Shown here piece after piece: positions 939-29,074 of a stretch of 64,000 bases of DNA. The notes under the pieces are model-generated. The model saw only the letters and a list, made by a program, of their open reading frames with translations. It was not told the DNA's origin and made no database searches. The DNA is from an uncultured Ectothiorhodospiraceae bacterium (GTDB lineage Bacteria > Pseudomonadota > Gammaproteobacteria > S012-40). Location: positions 70,088 to 134,087 of the forward strand of contig CALZJE010000003.1 of the NCBI GenBank assembly GCA_945787715.1. Direction: 5' to 3'. The position numbers and the translations under genes are program-made. Position 1 is the first letter of the stretch, and every line of letters begins with the position of its first letter.

Positions 939-3197
939 ATGCCAAAAATGACTTCACAATCCAACATATTAGCTGGCCAAAGCCCTACGCGGCGAAAATG
1001 GCGAATGTTCAATGACAAAGCAGCCTCCCACTTAGTTCGATTAGGTGGGCTAAGTGTTATTTTTGCGATAACACTCATTTTCTTCTATCTACTCTCTGTT
1101 GTTATTCCTCTATTTGAGGGAGCTGAGATCGAGAAACGTTATGAATATCAGATTCCAGCTTTAACTGAGCAGCAGACACTTCACTATGTCATCGATGAGC
1201 AGGGTGAAGTTGCTATTCGCTTATCTGAAGATGGTATCGCTACCAGTTTTAATTTGGCTAATGGTGAGGTTTTTGAGCAAGTTACACTCACTAATGAAAA
1301 AATTACGAGCTTTGGCCGTGGTGATCCAGGTTCAGGTAATGTTGTTCTTGGTCTGGCAAACGGATCGGCAATTGCGGTTAAGCTTGGTTTTAAAACGGTT
1401 TTTACCGAAACGGGAAGAACAGTATCTGCCGAATATACTCATATATTAGGTGAAGACCCTATTGAGGTCGATGAGGAAGGGTTGGCGCTTACGCATATCA
1501 CCCTTCAATCCAATGATGAAAGCACCAGTATTGTCGCCATTAATGAATCAAGCACATTACGAATTACAAAATTTCTAAAAGAAGATTCGTTGTTTGAAGA
1601 TGAGGTTGAGTTTGAGCAAGTTAACGCGACGATTGGACAGCTTGACTACGATGTTCAAAAGCTGCTGATCGATAACGTTCAGCGTTTAATGTATGTTGCT
1701 GACAACGTAGGTGCCATTTTTGTTTACGACATCAGCGATATCGAGGATGTTCGTTTATATGAGAGAAAAGTTATCTCTTCTGATAATCAGCCTTTTGCTG
1801 ATATTCAATTAGCAGCAGGTGGCGTATCACTGATTATTGCGCAACAAAGTGATTCTGTTTCTCAGTGGTTTCCTGTTCGTGATGAAAATAATGATTACTC
1901 TTTAGCGCTAGTTCGGGAATTTCATCTTGGTAATTCCCTTATTTCTCAAGTTACCCCAGAATATTTTAGAAAAGAATTCTTTAGCATGAGCGAGAGTGGT
2001 GAATTAGGTATTCATCATTTAACAGCACATCAAACATTGATTCACGAAAAAGTGAGCGATGTAAAGATTACCCAATTAGTCATTTCTCCTCGTTCGAATT
2101 ATGCCCTGCTTGAAGATGCTGAAGGTAAGATACAAGTTTGGCATGTTATTAATGAATATCCAGAAGTCTCCTGGTCTTCACTCTGGGGCAAAGTCTGGTA
2201 TGAAGGGTATGACGAGGCGGATTACATCTGGCAATCATCAGCTGCAGATAGTGATTTTGAGGCAAAGCTAAGTTTAGTTCCTTTATCGTTCGGTACTTTA
2301 AAAGCAGCTTTTTATGCAATGATGGTTGCTGTGCCATTAGCGATTTTTGGCGCAATATATACCGCCTATTTTATGTCCTCTCGTCTTCGTCAAACGGTTA
2401 AGCCCACCATTGAAATTATGGAGGCGTTACCGACTGTTATTCTCGGTTTTCTAGCAGGTTTATGGTTTGCGCCATTTTTGGAGACCCACATGCCAGGTGT
2501 TTTTGCTGTCTCCTTATTGCTGCCATTAGGCGTTCTTTTGTTCGCATATCTGTGGTACAAATCGCCCAAATCTCTGACGGGTTGGGTGCCTGATGGGTGG
2601 CAGCCTATTCTGCTAATTCCGATTATTATTCTGATTGTTTGGGGGGCTATTGCTGTCAGTCCTGCTATGGAAACCGCATTTTTTGGTGGCAACATGCCCA
2701 TCTGGTTAAATCAGGAAATGGGTATTAGTTATGACCAGCGTAACGCGATGGTGGTTGGTTTTGCCATGGGCTTTGCGGTGATTCCTACGATCTACTCTAT
2801 CGCTGAAGATGCTATTTTTGGTGTACCCAAACATTTAACGAATGGATCATTGGCGTTGGGCGCCACTCCTTGGCAAACACTAACGCGGGTTGTTATTTTA
2901 ACCGCTAGTCCAGGTATTTTCTCTGCGGTGATGATTGGCTTTGGCCGTGCGGTGGGTGAAACGATGATTGTATTGATGGCTACGGGTAATACACCGATTC
3001 TCGATTTCAACATATTTGAAGGCATGCGTACTTTATCTGCCAATATTGCGGTAGAAATGCCTGAAGCGGAAGTGGGTAGTACGCATTATCGCGTGTTATT
3101 TCTTGCCGCACTTATTCTCTTTATATTTACATTCATGTTCAACACAATCGCTGAGCTGGTTCGACAGCGATTGCGTAAGAAATATAGCTCACTCTAA
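939..3197 (+). CDS. pstC: Phosphate ABC transporter permease PstC with large N-terminal periplasmic domain
   Basis: C-terminal permease domain (GGNMPIW, EDAIFGVPKHLTNGSLALGATPWQTLTRVVILTASPGIFSAVMIGFGRAVGETMIVLMATGN); start revised from GTG 909 to ATG 939 because 909 lies in a candidate Pho box. Confidence 0.9.
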   Translation: MPKMTSQSNILAGQSPTRRKWRMFNDKAASHLVRLGGLSVIFAITLIFFYLLSVVIPLFEGAEIEKRYEYQIPALTEQQTLHYVIDEQGEVAIRLSEDGIATSFNLANGEVFEQVTLTNEKITSFGRGDPGSGNVVLGLANGSAIAVKLGFKTVFTETGRTVSAEYTHILGEDPIEVDEEGLALTHITLQSNDESTSIVAINESSTLRITKFLKEDSLFEDEVEFEQVNATIGQLDYDVQKLLIDNVQRLMYVADNVGAIFVYDISDIEDVRLYERKVISSDNQPFADIQLAAGGVSLIIAQQSDSVSQWFPVRDENNDYSLALVREFHLGNSLISQVTPEYFRKEFFSMSESGELGIHHLTAHQTLIHEKVSDVKITQLVISPRSNYALLEDAEGKIQVWHVINEYPEVSWSSLWGKVWYEGYDEADYIWQSSAADSDFEAKLSLVPLSFGTLKAAFYAMMVAVPLAIFGAIYTAYFMSSRLRQTVKPTIEIMEALPTVILGFLAGLWFAPFLETHMPGVFAVSLLLPLGVLLFAYLWYKSPKSLTGWVPDGWQPILLIPIIILIVWGAIAVSPAMETAFFGGNMPIWLNQEMGISYDQRNAMVVGFAMGFAVIPTIYSIAEDAIFGVPKHLTNGSLALGATPWQTLTRVVILTASPGIFSAVMIGFGRAVGETMIVLMATGNTPILDFNIFEGMRTLSANIAVEMPEAEVGSTHYRVLFLAALILFIFTFMFNTIAELVRQRLRKKYSSL

Positions 3198-3223
3198 TAG
3201 ATTACTGACGCAAAATTATCGAT

Positions 3224-4873
3224 ATGAAGACTTGGTTTAAAAGTGGTTCTCCTTGGATTTGGCTTTCTGCATCAGCAGTAAGCATGAGTCTTATTATGGT
3301 AGTGGGGCTGATCGGCTTAATTGCGATTCGAGGCTTGGGTATCTATTGGCCATCTGAAATTCATCAGATCGATGTGAAAAAAGTTGATGGAAGTAGTGAA
3401 GTCTTAATTGGAGAAATCTACGATTCAGAAATTGTTAGCAGAGGTCGTCTCGAAGGCGCTGGAATTAAACTTGAAGGCGATGAACAATTCTTTGATAGAA
3501 CATTATACAAAGTTGGAAATCGTGAGATATACGGCGTAGATTTTAAATGGGTGCTTAACAATAAGATCAAGTCAGAAGTATATCCGCAAGATATTGTTGT
3601 TTTCGAACGCCGTGAATGGGGAAATTTATACGGCTTCATTGAAAATGTAAAAGAGAACAATGTCATCAAGCCAGTAACTGATGTTTGGAGTGATTTTCAG
3701 TCACGGGTTGATCGTGCAATGGATCTTCACGAACAGATTAAAGTTATTGAAAAAGATGAGATAGGGCGAATTAATGCCGCATTAGAGCGTTTAAGGCTAA
3801 AAGCGAAAAAACTTGAATTGACCGGCTCTTTAACACCTGAAAGCATCATTGAAATAGAAGCCGATACAGCCGCTCAAAATAAGATATATGAGGGATTGCA
3901 AGGACGGCTTGCAGCGCTATATGCTGAAATTAAGCGAGATCAGGTCGTTGTAAAAGTGGCGAGTGGCCAATCTGTTGATATTTCCATTTCGGAGGTCGTT
4001 CGAACTTGGATGCCCAATAATATGGGGCTATTTGAAAAAATAGGCTTTTACGCCACCAGTGTTTGGCTGTTTGTTTCTGAAGAGCCACGTGAGGCAAATA
4101 CCGAGGGTGGTATCTTTCCCGCTATTTTCGGCACGATCATGATGGTGATTATTATGTCAATTATCGTAACGCCGTTTGGTATTGTCGCTGCTGTCTATTT
4201 GAAAGAATATGCATCTCAAGGTTTTATTACTCGTACGATTAGAATTGCCGTGAATAACCTGGCCGGTGTTCCATCGATTGTTTATGGGGTATTTGGATTA
4301 GGTTTCTTTGTCTATTTTCTTGGTGGCAATATCGATCAACTGTTTTTCCCAGAGGCTTTACCCGCACCGACTTTTGGTACGCCGGGTATTTTATGGGCAT
4401 CTCTTACCTTGGCGATTCTTACTGTGCCAGTTGTTATAGTTGCGACGGAGGAAGGCTTGTCTCGTGTACCTAAGAATATTCGAGAAGGTAGCTTGGCATT
4501 AGGCGCAACTAAATGGGAAACATTATGGAAAACGGTTTTACCGATGGCCAGCCCAGCGATGATGACAGGTTTAATTTTGGCTGTAGCGCGTGCCGCAGGT
4601 GAAGTAGCACCTTTAATGCTTGTCGGTGTGGTAAAACTGGCTCCAACACTTCCACTAGATATGACATTCCCCTACCTGCATTTGGATCGCAAATTTATGC
4701 ACTTGGGTTTTCATATTTACGATGTCGGTTTTCAAAGCCCGAATATTGAAGCTGCGAGGCCATTGGTGTATGCGACGGCATTTCTTCTTGTCGTTGTTAT
4801 TATTTTCCTGAATTTGGCGGCAATTTCTGTGCGAAACAGATTGCGGGAAAAATTTAAAGGCTACGATAGTTAA
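3224..4873 (+). CDS. pstA: Phosphate ABC transporter permease PstA
   Basis: EEGLSRVPKNIREGSLALGATKWETLWKTVLPMASPAMMTGLILAVARAAGEVAPLMLVG permease motif; follows pstC. Confidence 0.9.
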   Translation: MKTWFKSGSPWIWLSASAVSMSLIMVVGLIGLIAIRGLGIYWPSEIHQIDVKKVDGSSEVLIGEIYDSEIVSRGRLEGAGIKLEGDEQFFDRTLYKVGNREIYGVDFKWVLNNKIKSEVYPQDIVVFERREWGNLYGFIENVKENNVIKPVTDVWSDFQSRVDRAMDLHEQIKVIEKDEIGRINAALERLRLKAKKLELTGSLTPESIIEIEADTAAQNKIYEGLQGRLAALYAEIKRDQVVVKVASGQSVDISISEVVRTWMPNNMGLFEKIGFYATSVWLFVSEEPREANTEGGIFPAIFGTIMMVIIMSIIVTPFGIVAAVYLKEYASQGFITRTIRIAVNNLAGVPSIVYGVFGLGFFVYFLGGNIDQLFFPEALPAPTFGTPGILWASLTLAILTVPVVIVATEEGLSRVPKNIREGSLALGATKWETLWKTVLPMASPAMMTGLILAVARAAGEVAPLMLVGVVKLAPTLPLDMTFPYLHLDRKFMHLGFHIYDVGFQSPNIEAARPLVYATAFLLVVVIIFLNLAAISVRNRLREKFKGYDS

Positions 4874-17663: not shown

Positions 17664-18113
17664 ATGAGTGGATTAATACGCCGAGAACCTTGGGGTCTAT
17701 TGGGTCAATTTCATGACGAGATCGACCGCCTGTTTCAAAATAAATTCCCATTAACTTCAAACGAAATGCCAAGTGTTGCATCAGATTGGGTACCTGCGGT
17801 TGATGTAAAGGAAGAGAATGATAAATATGTTATCCATGCGGATATACCCGGAGTTGATCCTAAAGATATTCATGTCAGCATGGAAAATGGATTTTTAACA
17901 ATCCGCGGCGAACGCAAACATGAAAAAAATGAAGCCGAAGAGGGTTTCAAGCGTGTTGAGCGTGTTAGTGGTACGTTTTTCCGCCGATTTAGCTTGCCAG
18001 ATACGGTTAATGCAGAAGGCATTACAGCTAAAGGACAAAACGGTGTATTGGAAGTAGTGATTCCGAAAGCGAGTCAGCCTCAGGCTAGAAAGATAAATGT
18101 TGTTGAAGGGTAG
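17664..18113 (+). CDS. Hsp20/alpha-crystallin family small heat-shock protein
   Basis: SDWVPAVDVKEENDKYVIHADIPGVDPKDIHVSMENGFLTIRGERKHE...GVLEVVIPKA. Confidence 0.95.
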   Translation: MSGLIRREPWGLLGQFHDEIDRLFQNKFPLTSNEMPSVASDWVPAVDVKEENDKYVIHADIPGVDPKDIHVSMENGFLTIRGERKHEKNEAEEGFKRVERVSGTFFRRFSLPDTVNAEGITAKGQNGVLEVVIPKASQPQARKINVVEG

Positions 18114-18389: not shown

Positions 18390-18765
18390 TCAATTAACTT
18401 TCTGGTAATACGGTAAACGCTCGTTAACTTTGTTGAGATAAATTTTACTTTCTTCAAAGGGGAGTTGATCTACTAATGTTTTAAAAACCGCATCGGCACT
18501 TTTTGCATTAATTGCATCAAATGATTTTTTCAATATGGAATTGCCAGTAAATGCCCTGGCGATATTTCCTAATCCTGAATTATAAGCGGCAATAGTACAA
18601 TAGAGTCGACTTTTAGGTTCAGTAACCCCCCCCCTGTAAATAATCATAATACATCACGTTGAAATATGCAGAGCCTAACTCCGTGTTATTTACATTGTTA
18701 TAGTTATATAAAAAGTTGGGGTGATTATTTTTTCTTTAAAAGCTTCGTTGTCTAAACTTGCTATT
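18390..18765 (-). pseudogene. Remnant of an MltC-like lytic murein transglycosylase (frameshifts plus 5' truncation)
   Basis: YCTIAAYNSGLGNIARAF; upstream in another frame PNFLYNYNNVNNTELGSAYFNVMYYDYLQG joined across a 9-G tract; a second frame break at a T5 run. Confidence 0.75.
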
Positions 18766-18896: not shown

Positions 18897-18978
18897 CCCT
18901 AATCCCTATTTAGAAACGCGAAATAATGTGCACCAAAAGAGCTTGTGTAGGATGCGTGTTTCTAAGTAGGGATTAGGG
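18897..18978. repeat. 82-bp inverted-repeat element (MITE-like hairpin)
   Basis: CCCTAATCCCTATTTAGAAACGCG (18897-18920) pairs with CGTGTTTCTAAGTAGGGATTAGGG (18955-18978), 22 of 24. Confidence 0.8.
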
Positions 18979-19041
18979 ATAAAGCTTAAACTACCGGCTT
19001 TAGCTATATAATGATATGCCTCACGAAATAAGGAGGTTGAT

Positions 19042-19180
19042 ATGGAATATAGGTACGGCAGTCATACGGTATACCAGATAGAGTATCACTTTGTATTGGT
19101 AAGCATAGATCATGTGCACATATTTGTGAGCTATCCCCCCTAATATGACTACAAGTGAAATTATGAGGTGAATTAAAGGA
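19042..19180 (+). pseudogene. IS200/IS605-family TnpA transposase remnant with internal deletion, frameshift and stop
   Basis: MEYRYGSHTVYQIEYHFVLV-SIDHVHIFVSYPP*; other frame PPNMTTSEIMR*IKG; RBS AGGAGG upstream; HUH motif (HVH) kept, catalytic-Tyr region missing. Confidence 0.85.
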
Positions 19181-19214: not shown

Positions 19215-19571
19215 TCAGGAATGCGCGCGAAACGACTTGCTAATCCGCTTCAGAAGCGGAATTTTTTCTGTAGAATCCACGAGCAAGTGGGAACGAGCAA
19301 TTTCGGAGTGATGTGCTGGGGAATCGTTAGTGATACATTGGCGAACAAACTCCAGCAGTTGTTGCTTAAATTGGCTATGCTCCAAGGCCAATGTCTGTTC
19401 TATCAAATGCTCAGCTTGAATAAATTCACCATCAGTCATCAGTTTGATCGCTTGCGACGTTAAATTTTTTGCCTCATTACGAGCTTTTACAGCGAGGGCC
19501 AATTCGGCCCCGCAGCGCTGGCATTGGGCTTCAGCATCTAAGCGCCCACGACAGATAGGACAGCGTTCCAT
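19215..19571 (-). CDS. Small zinc-ribbon protein with TPR-like helical region
   Basis: MERCPICRGRLDAEAQCQRCGAELAL (two CxxC); 1-nt overlap with the Hsp70 gene. Confidence 0.7.
   Translation of the reverse strand: MERCPICRGRLDAEAQCQRCGAELALAVKARNEAKNLTSQAIKLMTDGEFIQAEHLIEQTLALEHSQFKQQLLEFVRQCITNDSPAHHSEIARSHLLVDSTEKIPLLKRISKSFRAHS
19244..19267 (+). terminator. Perfect hairpin with T-run, possibly an IS200 right-end hairpin
   Basis: TCCGCTT cag AAGCGGA then ATTTTTT; lies inside the 3' end of the minus-strand Zn-ribbon ORF. Confidence 0.5.
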
Positions 19572-21304
19572 TACGACTCCAAATAGAAAACTAGATCGGA
19601 CAATTGGCTAACGGCATCATCGATATCACCACCTTGAGCAAGTGCATCTTTCAGGCGTTCAACACCATCAACTAAATCCTCTCTGTCATCTTCACCGGAA
19701 CCTTCCATTAAACTTTCCGCCTTTTCAATCAAGATCTGATTATGATTGCGTTGATTATCAGAGCGTGCTTGCTCGCTGAGGGATCCATCACCAAGCAATT
19801 GGCCAATACGCATCTTGGCCTGTTCTAACTCCTCTTCATCAAAACGAGCGATAGCATTGTCGATTGTAATACTTACCTCCATTCCGGTTGCTTTTTCTTT
19901 GGATGAAACATGTAATATGCCGTTGAGATCGAGGCTAAAAGTGGTGAGAATTTCGTTACCAGCAGGAGCTTTGCTTAATCCTTCAATGGTATAACGACCA
20001 ATTTCTGTATTGTTCAACGCATCTTTTTCTTCACCTTGGTAGATCATCACGTCTACCCTTTCTTGATTATCGTGGGGCGTAAAAAAAACTTCAGTATGGC
20101 GCGCTGGAATGGCACTGTTTTTACGGATAAGTGGGACGTAAGTATAGGGGTACATCTCACCGTCAAGCATAGATAGTGCACTGGTGCCAAATGTATAAGG
20201 CGTAATATCGACCAGGACACTATTTACTTTGTCACCACTGATAACTGCTCCTTGAATCGCTGCGCCACTGGCGACACACAAATCAGGGTCGATTTCGTTT
20301 CGAGTGGGTAAACCTACCTCTTGCTCAAGCCGTTGGCTGACTAGCGGAGTACGAGTGGCACCACCAATCAACAGGATTTCATCTAAATCAGAGACACTCA
20401 GATTTGCTCCTTCCAATGCTATGTGGGCCGCTTGTAGAGTTTGGTCAATGAAGGGAGTAATCATTTCTTCATAATCATGACGACTCAATTCAAGCGACAG
20501 ATGTATTACTTTGTTATTTTTTTTTAGTAGATATTCTTCATCCAGCATGGCAAACGGGTTATTGGAAAGGTAGATCTTAGCTGACTCCGCAGCCCGCCTA
20601 ATCCGTGCAATCACTTGAGGAGTAAATGCCTTTTCTTCAATAGAAAATTCATCTTTCAGGTGTTGAATGGCATGATCAATTATTTTTTGATCAAAATCAT
20701 CGCCGCCAAGGTGATTGTTACCATGGCTGGCCAACACTTCTACCACGTCGTTTTCCAGGCGGACGATTGATACGTCAAAAGTGCCGCCACCAAGGTCATA
20801 AGCCATGATATTTTTTTGGCCTAGATGGTTACTCTCATAAGCTAATGCTGCAGCGGTGGGTTCGTTGATAATACGTGCTACTTCTAAGCCTGCAATTCTA
20901 CCGGCATCGCGGGTAGCCTGGCGTTGAGCATCAGAAAAAAAAGCTGGCACGGTGATCACTGCTTTGTTTACCGCTTCACCCAAGTGCTGTTCAGCGATAG
21001 TTTTAAGCCGCTTAAGGATAATGGCCGAAATTTCCGCAGGCGTATAGCTGTGTTCACCTAAGTTAATTTGATAGTCACTGCCCATGTGGCGTTTAATCGA
21101 TTTGACCGTACGTTCAGGGTAAAGGGCAAATTGGTTGGCTGCAGATTCACCAACCAACATGCATCCATCATCTGCCAAACCAACGACTGAAGGTAGTAAA
21201 TAACTGCCGTTGTGAATTTCTAAAACTTCAACTTTTCCGTCTTTTACAATGGCGACTTCTGAATTGGTGGTGCCCAGATCAATGCCGATTATTCTTTCGC
21301 TCAT
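19571..21304 (-). CDS. Hsp70 family chaperone (HscC/DnaK-like, 577 aa)
   Basis: IGIDLGTTNSEVAIV, VITVPAFFSDAQRQATRDAGRIAGLEVARIINEPTAAALAY, YDLGGGTFDVSI, ILLIGGATRTPLV; substrate-binding-domain-like C-terminus. Confidence 0.95.
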   Translation of the reverse strand: MSERIIGIDLGTTNSEVAIVKDGKVEVLEIHNGSYLLPSVVGLADDGCMLVGESAANQFALYPERTVKSIKRHMGSDYQINLGEHSYTPAEISAIILKRLKTIAEQHLGEAVNKAVITVPAFFSDAQRQATRDAGRIAGLEVARIINEPTAAALAYESNHLGQKNIMAYDLGGGTFDVSIVRLENDVVEVLASHGNNHLGGDDFDQKIIDHAIQHLKDEFSIEEKAFTPQVIARIRRAAESAKIYLSNNPFAMLDEEYLLKKNNKVIHLSLELSRHDYEEMITPFIDQTLQAAHIALEGANLSVSDLDEILLIGGATRTPLVSQRLEQEVGLPTRNEIDPDLCVASGAAIQGAVISGDKVNSVLVDITPYTFGTSALSMLDGEMYPYTYVPLIRKNSAIPARHTEVFFTPHDNQERVDVMIYQGEEKDALNNTEIGRYTIEGLSKAPAGNEILTTFSLDLNGILHVSSKEKATGMEVSITIDNAIARFDEEELEQAKMRIGQLLGDGSLSEQARSDNQRNHNQILIEKAESLMEGSGEDDREDLVDGVERLKDALAQGGDIDDAVSQLSDLVFYLES

Positions 21305-21963
21305 TTCATTTCTCTATCAATTTTATTTACAATAACTTCTGCAACACGTAACAATTGCCCCTCGCGCAAATAGCCTTTACGAGGTTCGATCAGCACTACT
21401 CCATCCCCGAATCCAGCACGTTGCTCTATCGCACTCACCTGCATAGTATGGGGGTCCAGTTGCTTGCCGACAGCATCCACAGGTTTTACTTTATAACGCT
21501 CCAACAACCCATCAATTCGGCGCAGAGAAATATCCATACCCTGTTGCTGCGACTGGATATGTGCTGACGCACTTTCATCAAGAAAAGCTAACCAGCCTGG
21601 CTGATAAGATTTGGCTTGTTCTACTCCCGCTTCGATTCGGTCGCGCAGATCCAGTAAATTCAGCAAAAATGGCCGTTCTATTTTTTCCTTATCAGCATCC
21701 TGTTGTTGGCGACGTTCCTCGAGCTCATTGTTGAGCTGTTCATTACTGTTCTGCAGTAACGCTATCAGACCCTGAAATTCTTCGATTGCTGTCTTTACCT
21801 GGCGAGATTCAATTTTGACTTCTGCTTTTAACGCTGCCAATTCAGTGAATAAGCGATATAGGTCGATCTCAGGTTTTTCTATGTTGCTTGTGTTGGTGGG
21901 TGTCGTATCTAAATAATCACTAAACTTTGCCAACAGTTGTTGCTTTGCTTCAGTATCACCCAT
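21301..21963 (-). CDS. GrpE-like nucleotide exchange factor
   Basis: Coiled-coil N-terminus; DPHTMQVSAIEQRAGFGDGVVLIEPRKGYLREGQLLRVAEVIVNK resembles the GrpE C-terminal beta domain; overlaps the Hsp70 gene by 4 nt. Confidence 0.75.
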   Translation of the reverse strand: MGDTEAKQQLLAKFSDYLDTTPTNTSNIEKPEIDLYRLFTELAALKAEVKIESRQVKTAIEEFQGLIALLQNSNEQLNNELEERRQQQDADKEKIERPFLLNLLDLRDRIEAGVEQAKSYQPGWLAFLDESASAHIQSQQQGMDISLRRIDGLLERYKVKPVDAVGKQLDPHTMQVSAIEQRAGFGDGVVLIEPRKGYLREGQLLRVAEVIVNKIDREMK

Positions 21964-22280
21964 TATTTGAATATTTCCTTAGTAGAGCGATTTAGTAGCG
22001 CTTGAAAATTAGCTAAGCTTGGTCGTTGAGGTGACGTTGACGAATTTGATACTGCTTGTGCAATCAAGTCTTCAGGAGAAGGTGATTGGTAGTGAAACAA
22101 TTCGCGTTGCAATCGCAGTCGATGCGTTTTAATTGCATCATAGGCTGTTTGAATTTGCTGAAAAACTTCAGCATCTTTTTCTGGTGGGCATAGGCGAATG
22201 GCTTCCAAATAGGCTTTGCGTACTTCTTCATCAGTCGTTTTTCGATCAAGTGCAAGTATGATGTAGGGGTCTTTCAGCAT
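21963..22280 (-). CDS. J-domain-like protein with degenerate HPD motif
   Basis: DPYIILALDRKTTDEEVRKAYLEAIRLCPPEKDAEVFQQIQTAYDAIKTHRLR: J-domain helical pattern with CPPEKD at the HPD position. Confidence 0.75.
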   Translation of the reverse strand: MLKDPYIILALDRKTTDEEVRKAYLEAIRLCPPEKDAEVFQQIQTAYDAIKTHRLRLQRELFHYQSPSPEDLIAQAVSNSSTSPQRPSLANFQALLNRSTKEIFK

Positions 22281-24769
22281 CAGAACAGATCCAGTTGTTT
22301 ATTAGAATGTGGTTTGCTTTCTTTTTTGGTCTTTTTTTTCTTTTTTGGTTTAGGTGGTGGCGGTGAGAAAGGGTCAAAGTTATCGCCCATATCACTATCA
22401 ATTAATCCGGCCAAATCACGTTCGATCATATTTTTCGCATACTCCCGAAGCTCACTCTCGCCCATCTCTTTTTTTAGTTTTTTTAATTCGCTATCGGGCA
22501 TCATCTTAAATAACATCTCAATGAAATCTTCAGTACTAGGTAGCGGTCCTTCATCTAAATCGTTATCAATATCAAAATAAGGTGGAACGCCTGAATAGTC
22601 CATTAAAACCTCAATACGGCGTCGTAATCTTTTGTCATCATTTTCATGTGCTATTTCAATTAAATTATGTAATCGATTGTAGTCCTCATCCGATAAATAA
22701 TTGTTAATTTCCGTTTGCGCGTTTATTTTATAGTATTGAAACATCAGCTCATCGGGGCATTGTTTACAGGCTTTTTTTGCAAAGCTCAGAGATAAATTGT
22801 GCTGGTTAAAGTGACTTGTTGTTTCACATATCAATTCAAATTCAGATACGCTGTATTTATGTTTTATTCCCGTGCTCAAAGTTTGCGTCAACATTGACAG
22901 TGCTTCTGTAGCGTCACCTGTTTTTTCGCTTTTATCGAGTTTTTTCAACAAATGAAAAAGTTGCAGCAACTGCTCTTTCGGTATCGATTTAGGTAGCGGC
23001 TTGATTTTTGCCTTTTTCAGCGCCTTTGTTGCAGAGCGTTTCTGGCATATCAATTCCTGAAGCAAATAAAAATGACCACAAAGTTCTCCGCCCAGTTTCT
23101 CTTTAGCTGTCATCCACAGTGTGGAAGCTTCTTGTACTAGATCTTGATCCAGCAACCAGGTTCCGCGAACCAGGTCCACTCTAGCTTTATCCTTTTCTGT
23201 TCGAGTCCAGCTTTCAGCGATATCCAGCTCTTTTTCCGCTAGACTATATTTGCTGTTGTCTATTTGCTTTCTGGTGTGGGATAAGTGGGCGTCGATCAGT
23301 GATGTACGCACACGAGTATTGATCGGATCTTTTTCCAGGATTCGTTTTGCCAGTACGGCTGCTTTTTTATAGGCATTACTCGCTAAAGCTGTTTCAACCG
23401 CTTCAGTGAGAATGAGGATGTCATCCGGAAAAAATTTCATCGCCTGTTCTAGCCAGTGTCGTGCTTGTTTTAATTCTCCGTGTTCGCGATAGGTTGATAT
23501 AAGTCGAAGGTAGCTAGTAAGGTCCTGAGGATCATGAGTAAGAATCTGCTCTAACAAAGGTGATGATGAAATGTCCATTTCATCATCAAGACGATCAAAC
23601 TGCTGTAACTTATGGCCACTGATTAATGCAAGGGAGAGATGATAGTCGTCAGGAGTATCACAATCCTCGGGTGTCAGTAAATCCTCTACGTCCTCCCACT
23701 GTTCAACAATATGAAGTGGATAAGCATCGCATAATTCCTCTTTCCATGCATTTATTTTCGCATATTCAATCGTGGAGGGCTTACCATACACTTTGGCAAA
23801 ATTTGAGTTGCAGCCTGGGCTTTTCGCTAGTAGGCGCAAAGCAATATTACGCGCATATTTATCCCCCAGGGTTTGCCGATGGCGTAACACAAAACGCATC
23901 AAAGGCTCCGCGGAAGGAGAATCCCCCAGTTGTCGAAGCTCCTCAGTAAATTTCAGCAGCTTACTGTCAAGACCGCGCTTTGTTGCAATGAATTGAGTTA
24001 CCTGAGGATTTAGTTTTTTTATATTAGCAAACAGTAAGGTGTCTGGTTTAAAAGAAGCTGCTACCGCTTCAGCAAGTGGTATAAATGGAGAAGACGATGG
24101 AACCCGTGCGAGTAATTTCGTGACTGCGACAGTGTCATTTTCTGGTAAAGACAAAGCCTTCAAAATCTGACGCAGATCGCGAAACGGGGAACGAAAAGAA
24201 ATTGCCCTAAGCTGATCTTCCAAAATTTCATCATTGCCATCGCAATAGGCCTCCAGTGCTGCTAAAGCTACTGGATGATCTTTCACCAACATATCATCTA
24301 CTGGCAATGTTTTTAATATTTCACTTGGTTGTGCAAGACTTAGCGCTGCTAAATGTTCACGAACCTCAAGCAAAACCCCCTGCTGTTCAAGTTCTGTACT
24401 GTTCTGTTGATAGAGCGCAAATGCCTGCTCCACCATGCCAGCAGCAAGTAGGATGCGGAAATAGAAGAGATCAGTCAGCGGCTTCCCACACAATTCCGCG
24501 CGATTACGCCAAATCATCACCGCTTCTTTATACATTTTTTTTGAGGCTAGTTCTTTTGATCGCTCACTATAGATGGTGGCGAGCAGCTCAAGCCACTCGG
24601 GGCGTTTTTCCAGCTTCAATAAATTTTTGCAGCGCTCTGATGCTTCTTTGTACTTTTTGGCAGCAAAAAGTGCTTGAATCTCTTGTTCCTGGATCTCTGG
24701 TACTAGTGTGGAACTTCGATTTTTGCAAGAAGTTTGAGCTTTGTGAGTTTTTTTACGTTTGCGCGTCAT
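22280..24769 (-). CDS. Large TPR-repeat protein (829 aa), first gene of the chaperone operon
   Basis: Repeats such as YKEASERCKNLLKLEKRPEWLELLATIYSE and ELKQARHWLEQAMKFFPDDILILTEAVETALASNAYKKAAVLAKRILEKDP. Confidence 0.75.
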   Translation of the reverse strand: MTRKRKKTHKAQTSCKNRSSTLVPEIQEQEIQALFAAKKYKEASERCKNLLKLEKRPEWLELLATIYSERSKELASKKMYKEAVMIWRNRAELCGKPLTDLFYFRILLAAGMVEQAFALYQQNSTELEQQGVLLEVREHLAALSLAQPSEILKTLPVDDMLVKDHPVALAALEAYCDGNDEILEDQLRAISFRSPFRDLRQILKALSLPENDTVAVTKLLARVPSSSPFIPLAEAVAASFKPDTLLFANIKKLNPQVTQFIATKRGLDSKLLKFTEELRQLGDSPSAEPLMRFVLRHRQTLGDKYARNIALRLLAKSPGCNSNFAKVYGKPSTIEYAKINAWKEELCDAYPLHIVEQWEDVEDLLTPEDCDTPDDYHLSLALISGHKLQQFDRLDDEMDISSSPLLEQILTHDPQDLTSYLRLISTYREHGELKQARHWLEQAMKFFPDDILILTEAVETALASNAYKKAAVLAKRILEKDPINTRVRTSLIDAHLSHTRKQIDNSKYSLAEKELDIAESWTRTEKDKARVDLVRGTWLLDQDLVQEASTLWMTAKEKLGGELCGHFYLLQELICQKRSATKALKKAKIKPLPKSIPKEQLLQLFHLLKKLDKSEKTGDATEALSMLTQTLSTGIKHKYSVSEFELICETTSHFNQHNLSLSFAKKACKQCPDELMFQYYKINAQTEINNYLSDEDYNRLHNLIEIAHENDDKRLRRRIEVLMDYSGVPPYFDIDNDLDEGPLPSTEDFIEMLFKMMPDSELKKLKKEMGESELREYAKNMIERDLAGLIDSDMGDNFDPFSPPPPKPKKKKKTKKESKPHSNKQLDLF

Positions 24770-24951
24770 GAGTGTTCATTAAATGAGCGATAAAGAGAAT
24801 ATTATACAATAGAGCAGTGCGGGAAATTAAAAGTATTTTGTAAAAAACTCAACTTTGTTTTCATTCCTTAGTTATTAGGCTATCTGACATTTGGACAGTT
24901 GAATTAGCATCTGTTCAGCTTGCTGGTTGAGCAAGCAAGCAGAATGCGTGT

Positions 24952-26286
24952 TTAATGCCCCATCGGAATATTAACACCAAACATGAAATTTTCATTTTCG
25001 TTAAGATACAGCTCCCCTGCATACCAGCCTTTGGATTTAATGCTTAATTCGATGAATGTATGAAACTTGCTATTCCAATGTTGTTCAGAATAGACGGACA
25101 TTCTTCCTCCCCATTGAGCTTCTGTGCTTGTAAATGAAAAATCTTTGGGTTGATTCCACACGCTAATGCCAAATGTATTCTCGGTAAACAGTTGGCCGAA
25201 ATGTTGTGGTAGAGAAATTAGCTCAAGACTCACGCCTGGAAAATAGTGTTCTTTGTTATTATAGTTGTGTAGCGTGAAAAATACTTTTCGGTTACTTGTT
25301 TGTAAATATAAATGAGCATCAATGCTGTAACCAAAGGGTGTTAAATAGTGTTTTAAATTGGCATTCCATAGAACTGGAGAGTTAATTATATTGTTATTGT
25401 ATAAAAATCCTCTTTTTCCAAAGAGAAATGGATCGAAAAAATTCAGATAAGAGAGGTAATGTTGTTTCCGCAAAAACCGCTTTTCTTCGTCATCTAACAT
25501 TGAATAGGTAATATAGCGATTAATTCCAACACCGCTGGGGTGGGTTCCTCTATCAGCATAGGGTTCGTCAGGACGAAACAGATCATATACCCAGGCATTG
25601 CAATCTAATCCAGTAAAATCACGACCTGAAATATTTTGCCCTTCATCTTTCAATATTTCTCGAGTGAGACTGTTGGATTCGTTGGAAGCACACGTGTATA
25701 GGTACGCCGATGTATTAATGCTATTAGATATGAGAATGAATTGATCAAAAGTTTGTGTGTCATGAAAAAACTGATCTTTTTCAATGACAAGGTTTAATTG
25801 GTTTTGTGATTCTAAACCTGCTGAGTGCATACGAATAAAATCGTGAGGGTGGTTCTTTTTTAAATTGCTGAGGTCTTCATCTTTTACATCACTCACAGAA
25901 ATTGTTTCAGAAAAAAATTCCATTTCGTAAACTTCATTGTAGCTGTTAATGCCGTATTGTCCCATGACTGTACGATGCCACTCTTCATGTAACCAGGCAT
26001 TAGAAAGTGGTATCCAAGATGTGAGAACATCGAACGCGATAATGGAAAAAAAAGTCGGTTTAAAATCGTGATCCCAATATTCAGACAAACCATAGTGCGC
26101 GGATTGATAAAAACCCTTGGTGAAGTAGAGAGATTGGGTCATGCTGGGATTAAGTGGATTGAAGTCCTTGTTGTATGGCAGGTCTACAAGTGGGAGCTTA
26201 AGCGTGAAAGCCGGTGTTGCTTGAACGCTACTGAGCATGAAAAGCAAACTTGTAATGGTAAGTATCTGTCTGAGCAATGGCTTCAT
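24952..26286 (-). CDS. Exported hypothetical protein with HEEWH (HExxH) motif
   Basis: Signal peptide MKPLLRQILTITSLLFMLSSVQA; SNAWLHEEWHRTVMGQYG. Confidence 0.6.
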   Translation of the reverse strand: MKPLLRQILTITSLLFMLSSVQATPAFTLKLPLVDLPYNKDFNPLNPSMTQSLYFTKGFYQSAHYGLSEYWDHDFKPTFFSIIAFDVLTSWIPLSNAWLHEEWHRTVMGQYGINSYNEVYEMEFFSETISVSDVKDEDLSNLKKNHPHDFIRMHSAGLESQNQLNLVIEKDQFFHDTQTFDQFILISNSINTSAYLYTCASNESNSLTREILKDEGQNISGRDFTGLDCNAWVYDLFRPDEPYADRGTHPSGVGINRYITYSMLDDEEKRFLRKQHYLSYLNFFDPFLFGKRGFLYNNNIINSPVLWNANLKHYLTPFGYSIDAHLYLQTSNRKVFFTLHNYNNKEHYFPGVSLELISLPQHFGQLFTENTFGISVWNQPKDFSFTSTEAQWGGRMSVYSEQHWNSKFHTFIELSIKSKGWYAGELYLNENENFMFGVNIPMGH

Positions 26287-27038: not shown

Positions 27039-28064
27039 ATGATTAAAATCCTAGCCAGACTAATTCTTCTAGTTTCAATTTTCTTGCCATTCTCTTTTGC
27101 TCATGCCAAAGAGTTGACTCTTCCCGATGATCATCTGCATCAAGTTGATGATTGTACTCGATGCCATAGTAGTGGTATTGATATTTCCAAAATCGTTCAG
27201 GATAAATCGTGCACCAGTTGTCATACTCAAGATGTGCTGAATAAATTTGTTGTTAAATTAGCCAATGGTGAGTTTTCGATTAAGCATAGAACGAAAAATA
27301 CACATCATATCGATGGTTCAGCTATCAATAAGGCGGCATTTTATGATGAGTCGAAATTTGGTGACGAGCCTAATTCCATGGTCACAATCCCTGCTGGTAA
27401 GTTTATTATGGGCACAGATGCGCGATTGTCTGATGAAGGTCCGCAGCATGAAGTAATGCTACCTGCTTTTCAAATTGATAAATACGAAGTGACAAATCTA
27501 CAGTATAAAAAATTTATTAATGCGACCAAGCGTAAGTCACCTTCCCATTTTCGAAATCGCACCTACCCGCGTGGAAAGGTTGATCATCCAGTAGTTTATG
27601 TAAATTGGAATGATGCAAAGGAATATTGTGAGTGGGCAGGCAAGCGCTTACCTACTGATCAAGAGTGGGAGAAAGCGGCGCGCGGCACTGATGCTCGCAC
27701 TTATCCCTGGGGTGATGAGTTTGATATTGCCAAAGCCAATATGCCCTTGCGATGGGAAAAGTTTGGTCGAAAATTTGGTGATACTTTGCCTATCGCAAGT
27801 TTTCCTGAAGGCGTGAGTCCTTATGGTTTGATGGATATGACCGGCAATGTGTGGGAATGGACTGAGTCGTGGTACAAAGCATATCCCAATAATCAGATAG
27901 AGTCGGAAAGTTATGGGGAACGTTATAAAACGTTAAAAGGTGGCTCGTGGTTCGATTGCTCCTTTTATAAGTGCGGTATTTCTGCACCAGTTTTTAATCG
28001 TGCGTTTTTTGGGAAAAAGACAAAAAATGATACTTTCGGTTTTCGATGTGCAAAAGATAGCTAA
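27039..28064 (+). CDS. SUMF1/formylglycine-generating-enzyme family protein with N-terminal diheme (2x CxxCH) region
   Basis: Signal peptide; CTRCH and CTSCH; VTIPAGKFIMGTDARLSDEGPQHEV; LPTDQEWEKAARGTDARTYPWGDEF; GNVWEWTESW; GGSWFDCSFYKCG; FGFRCAKD. Confidence 0.88.
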   Translation: MIKILARLILLVSIFLPFSFAHAKELTLPDDHLHQVDDCTRCHSSGIDISKIVQDKSCTSCHTQDVLNKFVVKLANGEFSIKHRTKNTHHIDGSAINKAAFYDESKFGDEPNSMVTIPAGKFIMGTDARLSDEGPQHEVMLPAFQIDKYEVTNLQYKKFINATKRKSPSHFRNRTYPRGKVDHPVVYVNWNDAKEYCEWAGKRLPTDQEWEKAARGTDARTYPWGDEFDIAKANMPLRWEKFGRKFGDTLPIASFPEGVSPYGLMDMTGNVWEWTESWYKAYPNNQIESESYGERYKTLKGGSWFDCSFYKCGISAPVFNRAFFGKKTKNDTFGFRCAKDS

Positions 28065-28078
28065 TCCGGTATATAAAT

Positions 28079-29074
28079 ATGAAAAAAATTCTAAGCCTTT
28101 CGCCACTTTTAGTTGTTACGGCGTGTAGTCAAAATGTTGATAATGTTGAGTCAAAAAAAGTAGCTCCTGTTGAAAAGCCAGTAAAATTTGAAACTGCTGT
28201 TATCGATGTCCCTATGAAATTAGTGCCAGCAGGTGAATTTATCATGGGGAGTAATAAGGTAGATACAGAAGGTATGCAGGAGCGATACGGATTTCCTGCG
28301 CCGCTTTTTGTCAATGAACATCCCGAACGCAAAGTAAACCTGAAAGCATTTATGATTGATGAATTTGAAGTAACGAATTCAGATTATAAAGCGTTTTTAC
28401 TTCGTACACAGGGCGAGGCACGTGGTGCTGTTCCGCCAACATGGAGTCAAAATGGTTATGGGTTGGCTAAAAGCCAAATGAAAACGATGGATATGGATAC
28501 GCTTCGAATGATCGGAGCGGAACATTTTAAATTGGACATGGATACGACTGTGATGAGTCGTGAAGAACTCATGACGGCCATGCTGGAACAGCAAACATTT
28601 GAAGATAAAAAGCCGGTAGTGGGTGCAACATGGTACGACGCGGTGAAATATTGCCAATGGCGTAGTGCACGATTGCCAACCGAAGCCGAATGGGAAAAGG
28701 CCGCAAGAGGAACTGATGCCCGTGAATTTCCCTGGGGCAATAACTGGGACCCTAAAATAACCAATACTGGCGATGAAGCAGAAGAGGAAGAGGGTATCGC
28801 ACAAGTTGGCACGTTTCCTAAAAATGCATCACCTTATGGGGTTTATGATATGTCGGGCAATGTCTGGGAGTGGGTAGAGGATTGGTATCAGCCCAACAAA
28901 GGCTCTACAGATAAAGATCCTGAATATGGAGAGACAAATAAAGTAATTCGTGGCGGTAGTGGTGGGATGGGACACTATGCCATCAGCTATTTTTATCGAA
29001 ATGCGACTCGCCAATATGCGAAGCCCGACACAGTTGCCGAAGATATTGGTTTCCGCTGCGTAAAGGATGTGTAA
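28079..29074 (+). CDS. SUMF1-domain lipoprotein
   Basis: Lipobox-like LLVVTACSQ; MKLVPAGEFIMGSNKV; LPTEAEWEKAARGTDAREFPWGNNW; GNVWEWVEDW; IGFRCVKDV. Confidence 0.85.
   Translation: MKKILSLSPLLVVTACSQNVDNVESKKVAPVEKPVKFETAVIDVPMKLVPAGEFIMGSNKVDTEGMQERYGFPAPLFVNEHPERKVNLKAFMIDEFEVTNSDYKAFLLRTQGEARGAVPPTWSQNGYGLAKSQMKTMDMDTLRMIGAEHFKLDMDTTVMSREELMTAMLEQQTFEDKKPVVGATWYDAVKYCQWRSARLPTEAEWEKAARGTDAREFPWGNNWDPKITNTGDEAEEEEGIAQVGTFPKNASPYGVYDMSGNVWEWVEDWYQPNKGSTDKDPEYGETNKVIRGGSGGMGHYAISYFYRNATRQYAKPDTVAEDIGFRCVKDV

Follow-up and report, generated by a model that had tools for sequence, protein, structure and literature searches.

A conserved five-gene operon encoding a separate clade of Hsp70, its own GrpE, a J-like protein without the HPD histidine and a TPR protein with a beta-clamp-type tail motif

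To compare the chaperone operon reported here with described systems we searched the open-access literature, which yielded DnaK, HscA and HscC (PMC8215388) as well as the SglK-GrpE pair of Myxococcus (PMC11019930, PMC8265645). The five-gene system itself was not found described there; subscription papers were outside the scope of the search, so an earlier description is not excluded. The DnaK-DnaJ-GrpE machine shares with the operon the Hsp70, J and GrpE parts, the J-docking residues and, in most members, the length of the GrpE loop, whereas the operon has lost the HPD motif, forms a separate transcription unit and contains additional TPR and ribbon proteins. HscA-HscB is likewise a dedicated Hsp70-J pair alongside the housekeeping one, but the operon has no Fe-S genes, includes a GrpE and its Hsp70 lies outside the HscA clade. 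HscC from E. coli, working with DjlB and DjlC, resembles the operon Hsp70 as a specialised protein of 550-580 aa in which the segment DnaK 76-101 is missing and loop L1,2 carries an insertion, both being described features of HscC (PMC8215388). It also has its own J proteins with a PETDP..F loop and Sel1-repeat genes nearby. In contrast, the operon Hsp70 falls into a separate clade and keeps the GrpE loop, the operon adds a GrpE, a TPR scaffold and a zinc ribbon, and its J-like protein is small, has no hydrophobic C-terminus and reads PPE where both DjlB and DjlC read HPE. SglK (MxDnaK2) from Myxococcus xanthus is also a second, specialised DnaK, the gene of which is paired in an operon of two genes with that of a GrpE homologue of its own, but no J gene adjoins SglK and no TPR or ribbon partner is mentioned (PMC11019930). 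The SglK Hsp70 restores an E. coli dnaK mutant (PMC8265645).

Gene order, distribution and genomic context

The window, meaning the whole stretch of 64,000 nucleotides that was analysed, contains the operon as five minus-strand ORFs at 19215-24769, the junctions of which (TPR/J-like/GrpE/Hsp70/zinc ribbon) overlap by 1, 1, 4 and 1 nt. This layout, the outer coordinates and the overlaps had already been given correctly in a sequence-only reading of the same DNA. The features are as follows.

22280..24769, minus strand: TPR scaffold protein, 829 aa, with a basic N-terminus, a helical repeat body and a basic C-terminal tail predicted to be disordered (TPR_19 50 bits, AlphaFold, operon homologues)
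22283..22297, minus strand: codons of the terminal QLDLF, which equals the consensus beta-clamp-binding pentapeptide (sequence, motif counts, PMC11139829)
21963..22280, minus strand: J-like protein, 105 aa, a J domain without HPD (DnaJ Pfam, alignment with DnaJ, DjlB and DjlC)
22179..22187, minus strand: PPE replacing HPD at J-like residues 32-34 (histidine absent in 38/38 homologues)
21301..21963, minus strand: divergent GrpE, 220 aa (GrpE Pfam 71 bits; the genome's second GrpE)
19571..21304, minus strand: Hsp70 of a separate clade, 577 aa (HSP70 472 bits, trees, residue mapping)
19215..19571, minus strand: zinc-ribbon and helical-hairpin protein, 118 aa (CxxC-CxxC in 41/41 homologues; AlphaFold helices of low confidence)
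19512..19562, minus strand: the two CxxC knuckles of the ribbon protein (sequence, homologue counts)
24801..24806, minus strand: TATAAT, which may be a -10 element and lies about 31 nt ahead of the TPR start (seen by eye in the sequence)

The promoter scan did not call this TATAAT, and the promoter and terminator scans of the operon gave nothing above shuffles. Among the Pfam families the TPR families, DnaJ, GrpE (cut-off 25.8 bits) and HSP70 were matched.

In 33 loci from Gammaproteobacteria, other classes of Pseudomonadota and Desulfobacterota these five genes recur in an identical order, and since these bacteria are distant from each other the operon is not a chance arrangement. For this count all five genes had to be recognised in order; contig ends truncate L057 and L214 in part and cut several further loci as well. 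A scan of GTDB contigs gave the first relatives, one in a Gammaproteobacteria MAG (L011) and one in a Desulfobacteraceae MAG (L012). Sampling with an Hsp70 profile then yielded 10 members in 369 genomes from the window's class (including the window's own), 8 in 297 genomes from the phylum of L012, 9 in 85 genomes from one class within that phylum (two of them seen before) and 16 other members in 399 genomes of Pseudomonadota. An eleventh match in the first of these samples (L051, a DnaK in the tree) and a ninth in the second (L076, also a DnaK) were left out. The distribution is thus sporadic, with about 3-4% of the sampled genomes carrying the system. Two genomes depart from the common order: G127 has the TPR gene on one contig and the Hsp70-ribbon pair on another, neither of them adjoined by J or GrpE (the rest of this genome was outside the search), and G086 has only a short TPR, a J-like protein and an Hsp70.

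Conservation of the gene order in related genomes and a second dnaK-dnaJ elsewhere in the genome had been named by the sequence-only reading as decisive for its proposal. The first holds in part, as the order is kept across phyla in nearly every uncut locus but neither the TPR protein nor a close Hsp70 was detected in 12 other genomes of the window's own family. The second holds fully, because the assembly (4.40 Mb, 227 contigs) encodes grpE-dnaK-dnaJ on contig 18, so that the operon Hsp70 is not the sole one. With hscB-hscA located on contig 6, the operon therefore represents a third, additional Hsp70 system; altogether the genome has two GrpE loci and six J-domain loci.

Replication genes were not found among the operon neighbours. 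Close to the operon lies a gene for an Hsp20 small heat-shock protein (17664-18113, plus strand), followed by an 85-aa piece (18390-18647, minus strand) that weakly matches a lytic transglycosylase (SLT) domain and is apparently a gene remnant. Just downstream of the operon, 18897-19140 is a decayed insertion element, in which an inverted repeat of 24 nt (92% complementary, with a spacer of 34 nt) is followed by 33 codons left over from what resembles an IS200-type transposase (Y1_Tnp matched weakly). The 444-aa protein encoded directly upstream of the operon (24952-26286) has no Pfam, NCBIfam or PADLOC match, and two neighbouring proteins at 27039-29074, the first with N-terminal CxxC motifs, look, by eye only, like relatives of formylglycine-generating enzymes. 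Three other origins were considered and rejected: a defence system, as no meaningful PADLOC match was obtained (the only weak one being GrpE with 18 bits), a plasmid, as neither the TPR protein nor GrpE had a plasmid match, and a phage, as the viral Hsp70s found were at most 43% identical.

The TPR protein and its C-terminal tail

Several ligands of the beta clamp carry a Q-led hydrophobic penta- or hexapeptide in their C-terminal tail, and QLDLF is reported as their strongest consensus peptide (PMC11139829). The Lys-rich C-terminus of the TPR protein from the window has exactly QLDLF as its final residues. It shares such a Q-led C-terminal peptide with Pol II, Pol IV and Pol III alpha (PMC11139829), but these are polymerases and not chaperone scaffolds, and no chaperone scaffold was found among the described clamp ligands. 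From a three-sequence alignment of modest quality, AlphaFold predicts an all-helical protein with pLDDT <50 for the final 45 residues (785-829), which are thus predicted to be disordered. A fold search with the model returned nothing beyond generic TPR scaffolds (TM about 0.2) and was uninformative. The homologues show 17-36% identity to the window protein and share the conserved blocks FRSPYRDLRQILKAL and SHLxHARKQ. In nearly all of them the sequence opens on a stretch rich in Lys/Arg, and a basic tail is frequent, also among members that have no clamp motif (L174, L175).

A beta-clamp-type motif is present in the last 14 residues of 17 of the 34 TPR proteins, compared to 4 of 614 background ORF ends, with nine proteins showing the pentamer (QxxLF) and eight the hexamer (QLxLxF). 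Wider motif definitions were drawn up after the tails had been seen; the strict definition, Q-aliphatic-x-[L/M]-[F/L] or hexamer, was taken from the review PMC11139829 and is met by 9/34 TPR tails and 3/614 background ends, while shuffling gave a mean of 0.07 and a maximum of 2 in 2000 trials. Two proteins with cut N-termini, L212 and L214, both without the motif, were left out of the 34. Outside the window the tails read QLDMF, QLNLF, QLDLF, QLILDF, QLTLDF and QLVLDL. The pentamer was first seen in Gammaproteobacteria and again in Desulfobacterota, and the hexamer form was already known from PMC11139829 when the third group was retrieved, in which it was then found. All three taxonomic groups thus contain the motif, for which the Hsp70 tree implies about 8 losses, gains or changes of form. 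It is missing from half of the TPR homologues (for example L012, L053, L055, L058 and L174) and it even varies within one genus (present in L210, missing in L209, L211 and L213); contact with the clamp is therefore not essential to the system everywhere. Where the TPR tail has no motif, none was detected on the J, GrpE, Hsp70 or ribbon tails either, and it is also absent from the tails of the E. coli HscC locus (DjlB, DjlC, HscC and YbeT). The TPR protein of L012 (4214-6910), which has no clamp tail, contains an internal acidic DDDIPF stretch similar to the end of SSB, possibly by chance.

The sequence-only reading had suggested that the TPR protein could recruit clients and had missed its tail, which is the first concrete hint of a target. 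From this motif, and without any binding data, we tentatively favour a model in which the TPR scaffold would recruit the Hsp70 machine to the DnaN sliding clamp. The lack of replication genes beside the operon and of the motif in half of the homologues speaks against it. A serious though more doubtful alternative is that the scaffold selects its clients directly and has no role at the clamp, the QxxLF tail then binding another target such as the substrate pocket of the Hsp70. Hydrophobic peptides that adjoin basic residues are ligands of Hsp70s in general. Furthermore, all evidence for the operon stands without the clamp, and it is the TPR core with its two blocks that is conserved and not the motif, which half of the proteins miss. 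Such a tail would leave unexplained why position 3 is often acidic or polar, as clamp motifs allow and Hsp70 sites disfavour, and why both pentamer and hexamer forms occur; Gln at position 1 of all 17 motifs points in the same direction, albeit by search definition. It is improbable that the machine is a nucleic-acid- or ribosome-associated chaperone, docked by the basic TPR ends on RNA or ribosomes where it would meet nascent chains, as no ribosome-linked neighbour of the operon was seen and the terminal QxxLF or QLxLxF would have no explanation, even if this would fit the Lys/Arg-rich N-termini and those basic tails that are found in motif-less proteins too.

The Hsp70 and its cochaperones

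The operon Hsp70 scores below the NCBIfam cut-offs for DnaK (511.6 of 822.55 bits for TIGR02350 and 523.5 of 648 for NF001413) and for HscA (400.9 of 708.55 bits). DnaK is its nearest solved relative by sequence, and the identity to the genome's own DnaK is about 40%. In a tree with 52 rows, including DnaK, HscA and HscC as had been proposed for a check, the 41 operon Hsp70s form one clade of their own (100/99) outside DnaK and HscA. HscC appears as sister to this clade (100/100), represented by only two long-branched rows and connected by a short joining branch (0.058). An identity as housekeeping DnaK was rejected on the basis of the NCBIfam scores, the genome's own dnaK elsewhere and the separate clade. 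The separate systems in the genome, the conserved order and the own Hsp70 clade all support the earlier proposal of a dedicated machine, and we are confident that the operon encodes an Hsp70 machine separate from the housekeeping one, its client specificity being unshown.

The segment equivalent to DnaK 76-101 in the NBD is missing in 41/41 operon Hsp70s, and an alignment of the displayed members shows an insertion in the SBD loop L1,2; these HscC-like features had escaped the sequence-only reading. The lid of the window's Hsp70 is shortened. The J-docking positions R167, T173, L391 and D393 are invariant (41/41) and N170 is found in 39/41, while the GrpE-facing loop has the DnaK length of 31 residues in 30/41 and 27 residues in 10, which is what one would expect of an Hsp70 on which both cochaperones act. 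The position of DnaK R56 is occupied by N in 40/41 and that of E264 by R in 28/41 sequences, and thus the salt bridge of the upper cleft is changed. By inference, this change may be linked to the private GrpE. A very divergent Hsp70 of 587 aa with an insertion near the interdomain linker is encoded by L068 (G378, 880-2643) in the same Desulfobacteraceae genome as L012.

The J-like protein matches the DnaJ Pfam family with 30.4 bits (cut-off 27.8) and had rightly been called divergent, but the loss of its HPD motif had been overlooked. At this position nearly all homologues read [P/S][P/A][E/D], and the histidine is missing in every one of the 38 members, though the partner residues on the Hsp70 are kept; the acidic residue expected to meet R167 of the Hsp70 is mostly kept as well. 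Because a J protein normally no longer stimulates the ATPase once its HPD histidine is lost, we read the J-like protein as an adaptor or weak stimulator, its function without the histidine being uncertain. The mitochondrial J-like protein Pam16 also has a J fold without HPD beside an Hsp70 system, but it acts with the true J protein Pam18 and the operon has no such partner. HPD decay, as far as can be judged from the sequence, occurs in HscC systems too, since L041 (G016, 1498-4323) encodes an HscC-like Hsp70 directly followed by a J protein with KPE for HPD. The ribbon protein remains below the Pfam cut-offs, yet all of its homologues contain CxxC...CxxC, and AlphaFold places helices at 21-46, 50-64 and 67-81 (mean pLDDT 62).

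We give little credence to the idea that the operon is a modified HscC-DjlB/DjlC system with membrane or metal-stress proteins as its targets: both have the DnaK 76-101 deletion and the L1,2 insertion, are neighbours in the tree and have similar J motifs (PPExDP..F and HPETDP..F), but the operon Hsp70s form their own clade, outside HscC as far as the two long-branched HscC rows show, the hydrophobic C-terminus of DjlB and DjlC is missing from the J-like protein, and the operon keeps both a GrpE and the GrpE loop whereas HscC is thought to work without GrpE (PMC8215388). An origin of the operon as a spare general DnaK machine, gained by lateral transfer, would agree with the sporadic distribution and with DnaK as nearest solved relative, but is very unlikely in view of the low identity to the genome's own DnaK, the missed DnaK cut-offs and the ribbon and TPR partners recurring in nearly all loci.

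Proposed mechanism and its meaning

Recruitment to the clamp remaining the preferred reading, it is possible, though by no means established, that the operon stands for a separate Hsp70 class which has an exchange factor of its own and a J-like protein lacking HPD, is tethered by the TPR protein to the clamp and brings chaperone power to sites of replication or repair. The Hsp70 would provide an ATP-driven grip on clients and would be reset by the private GrpE, for which nucleotide exchange is inferred, and the J-like protein, with proline and acidic residue kept, may dock on the Hsp70. The TPR scaffold would pick the work site for the inferred complex, as its basic ends and the QLDLF-type tail might bring the set to DnaN on DNA; this clamp binding is itself an inference. 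At the clamp the machine could then remodel or refold replication or repair proteins, and such work on fork proteins is equally inferred. The ribbon protein is presumably a small accessory part to which no role is assigned, and the tail-less half of the systems would have to make contact in some other way, perhaps via the basic ends.

In summary, DnaK, HscA and HscC are the usual divisions of bacterial Hsp70s, to which the operon Hsp70s add a further well-supported clade with full private cochaperones. The operon offers a natural test of two questions: how far the Hsp70 cycle can run without the HPD histidine, and for what reason the operon Hsp70 retains GrpE when HscA and HscC do without it. 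Provided that the clamp motif is genuine, an Hsp70 machine would be located at the replication fork and chaperone action at this site would gain a mechanism. This could also be relevant to UV resistance in E. coli, in which HscC has a role that is unexplained (PMC8215388).
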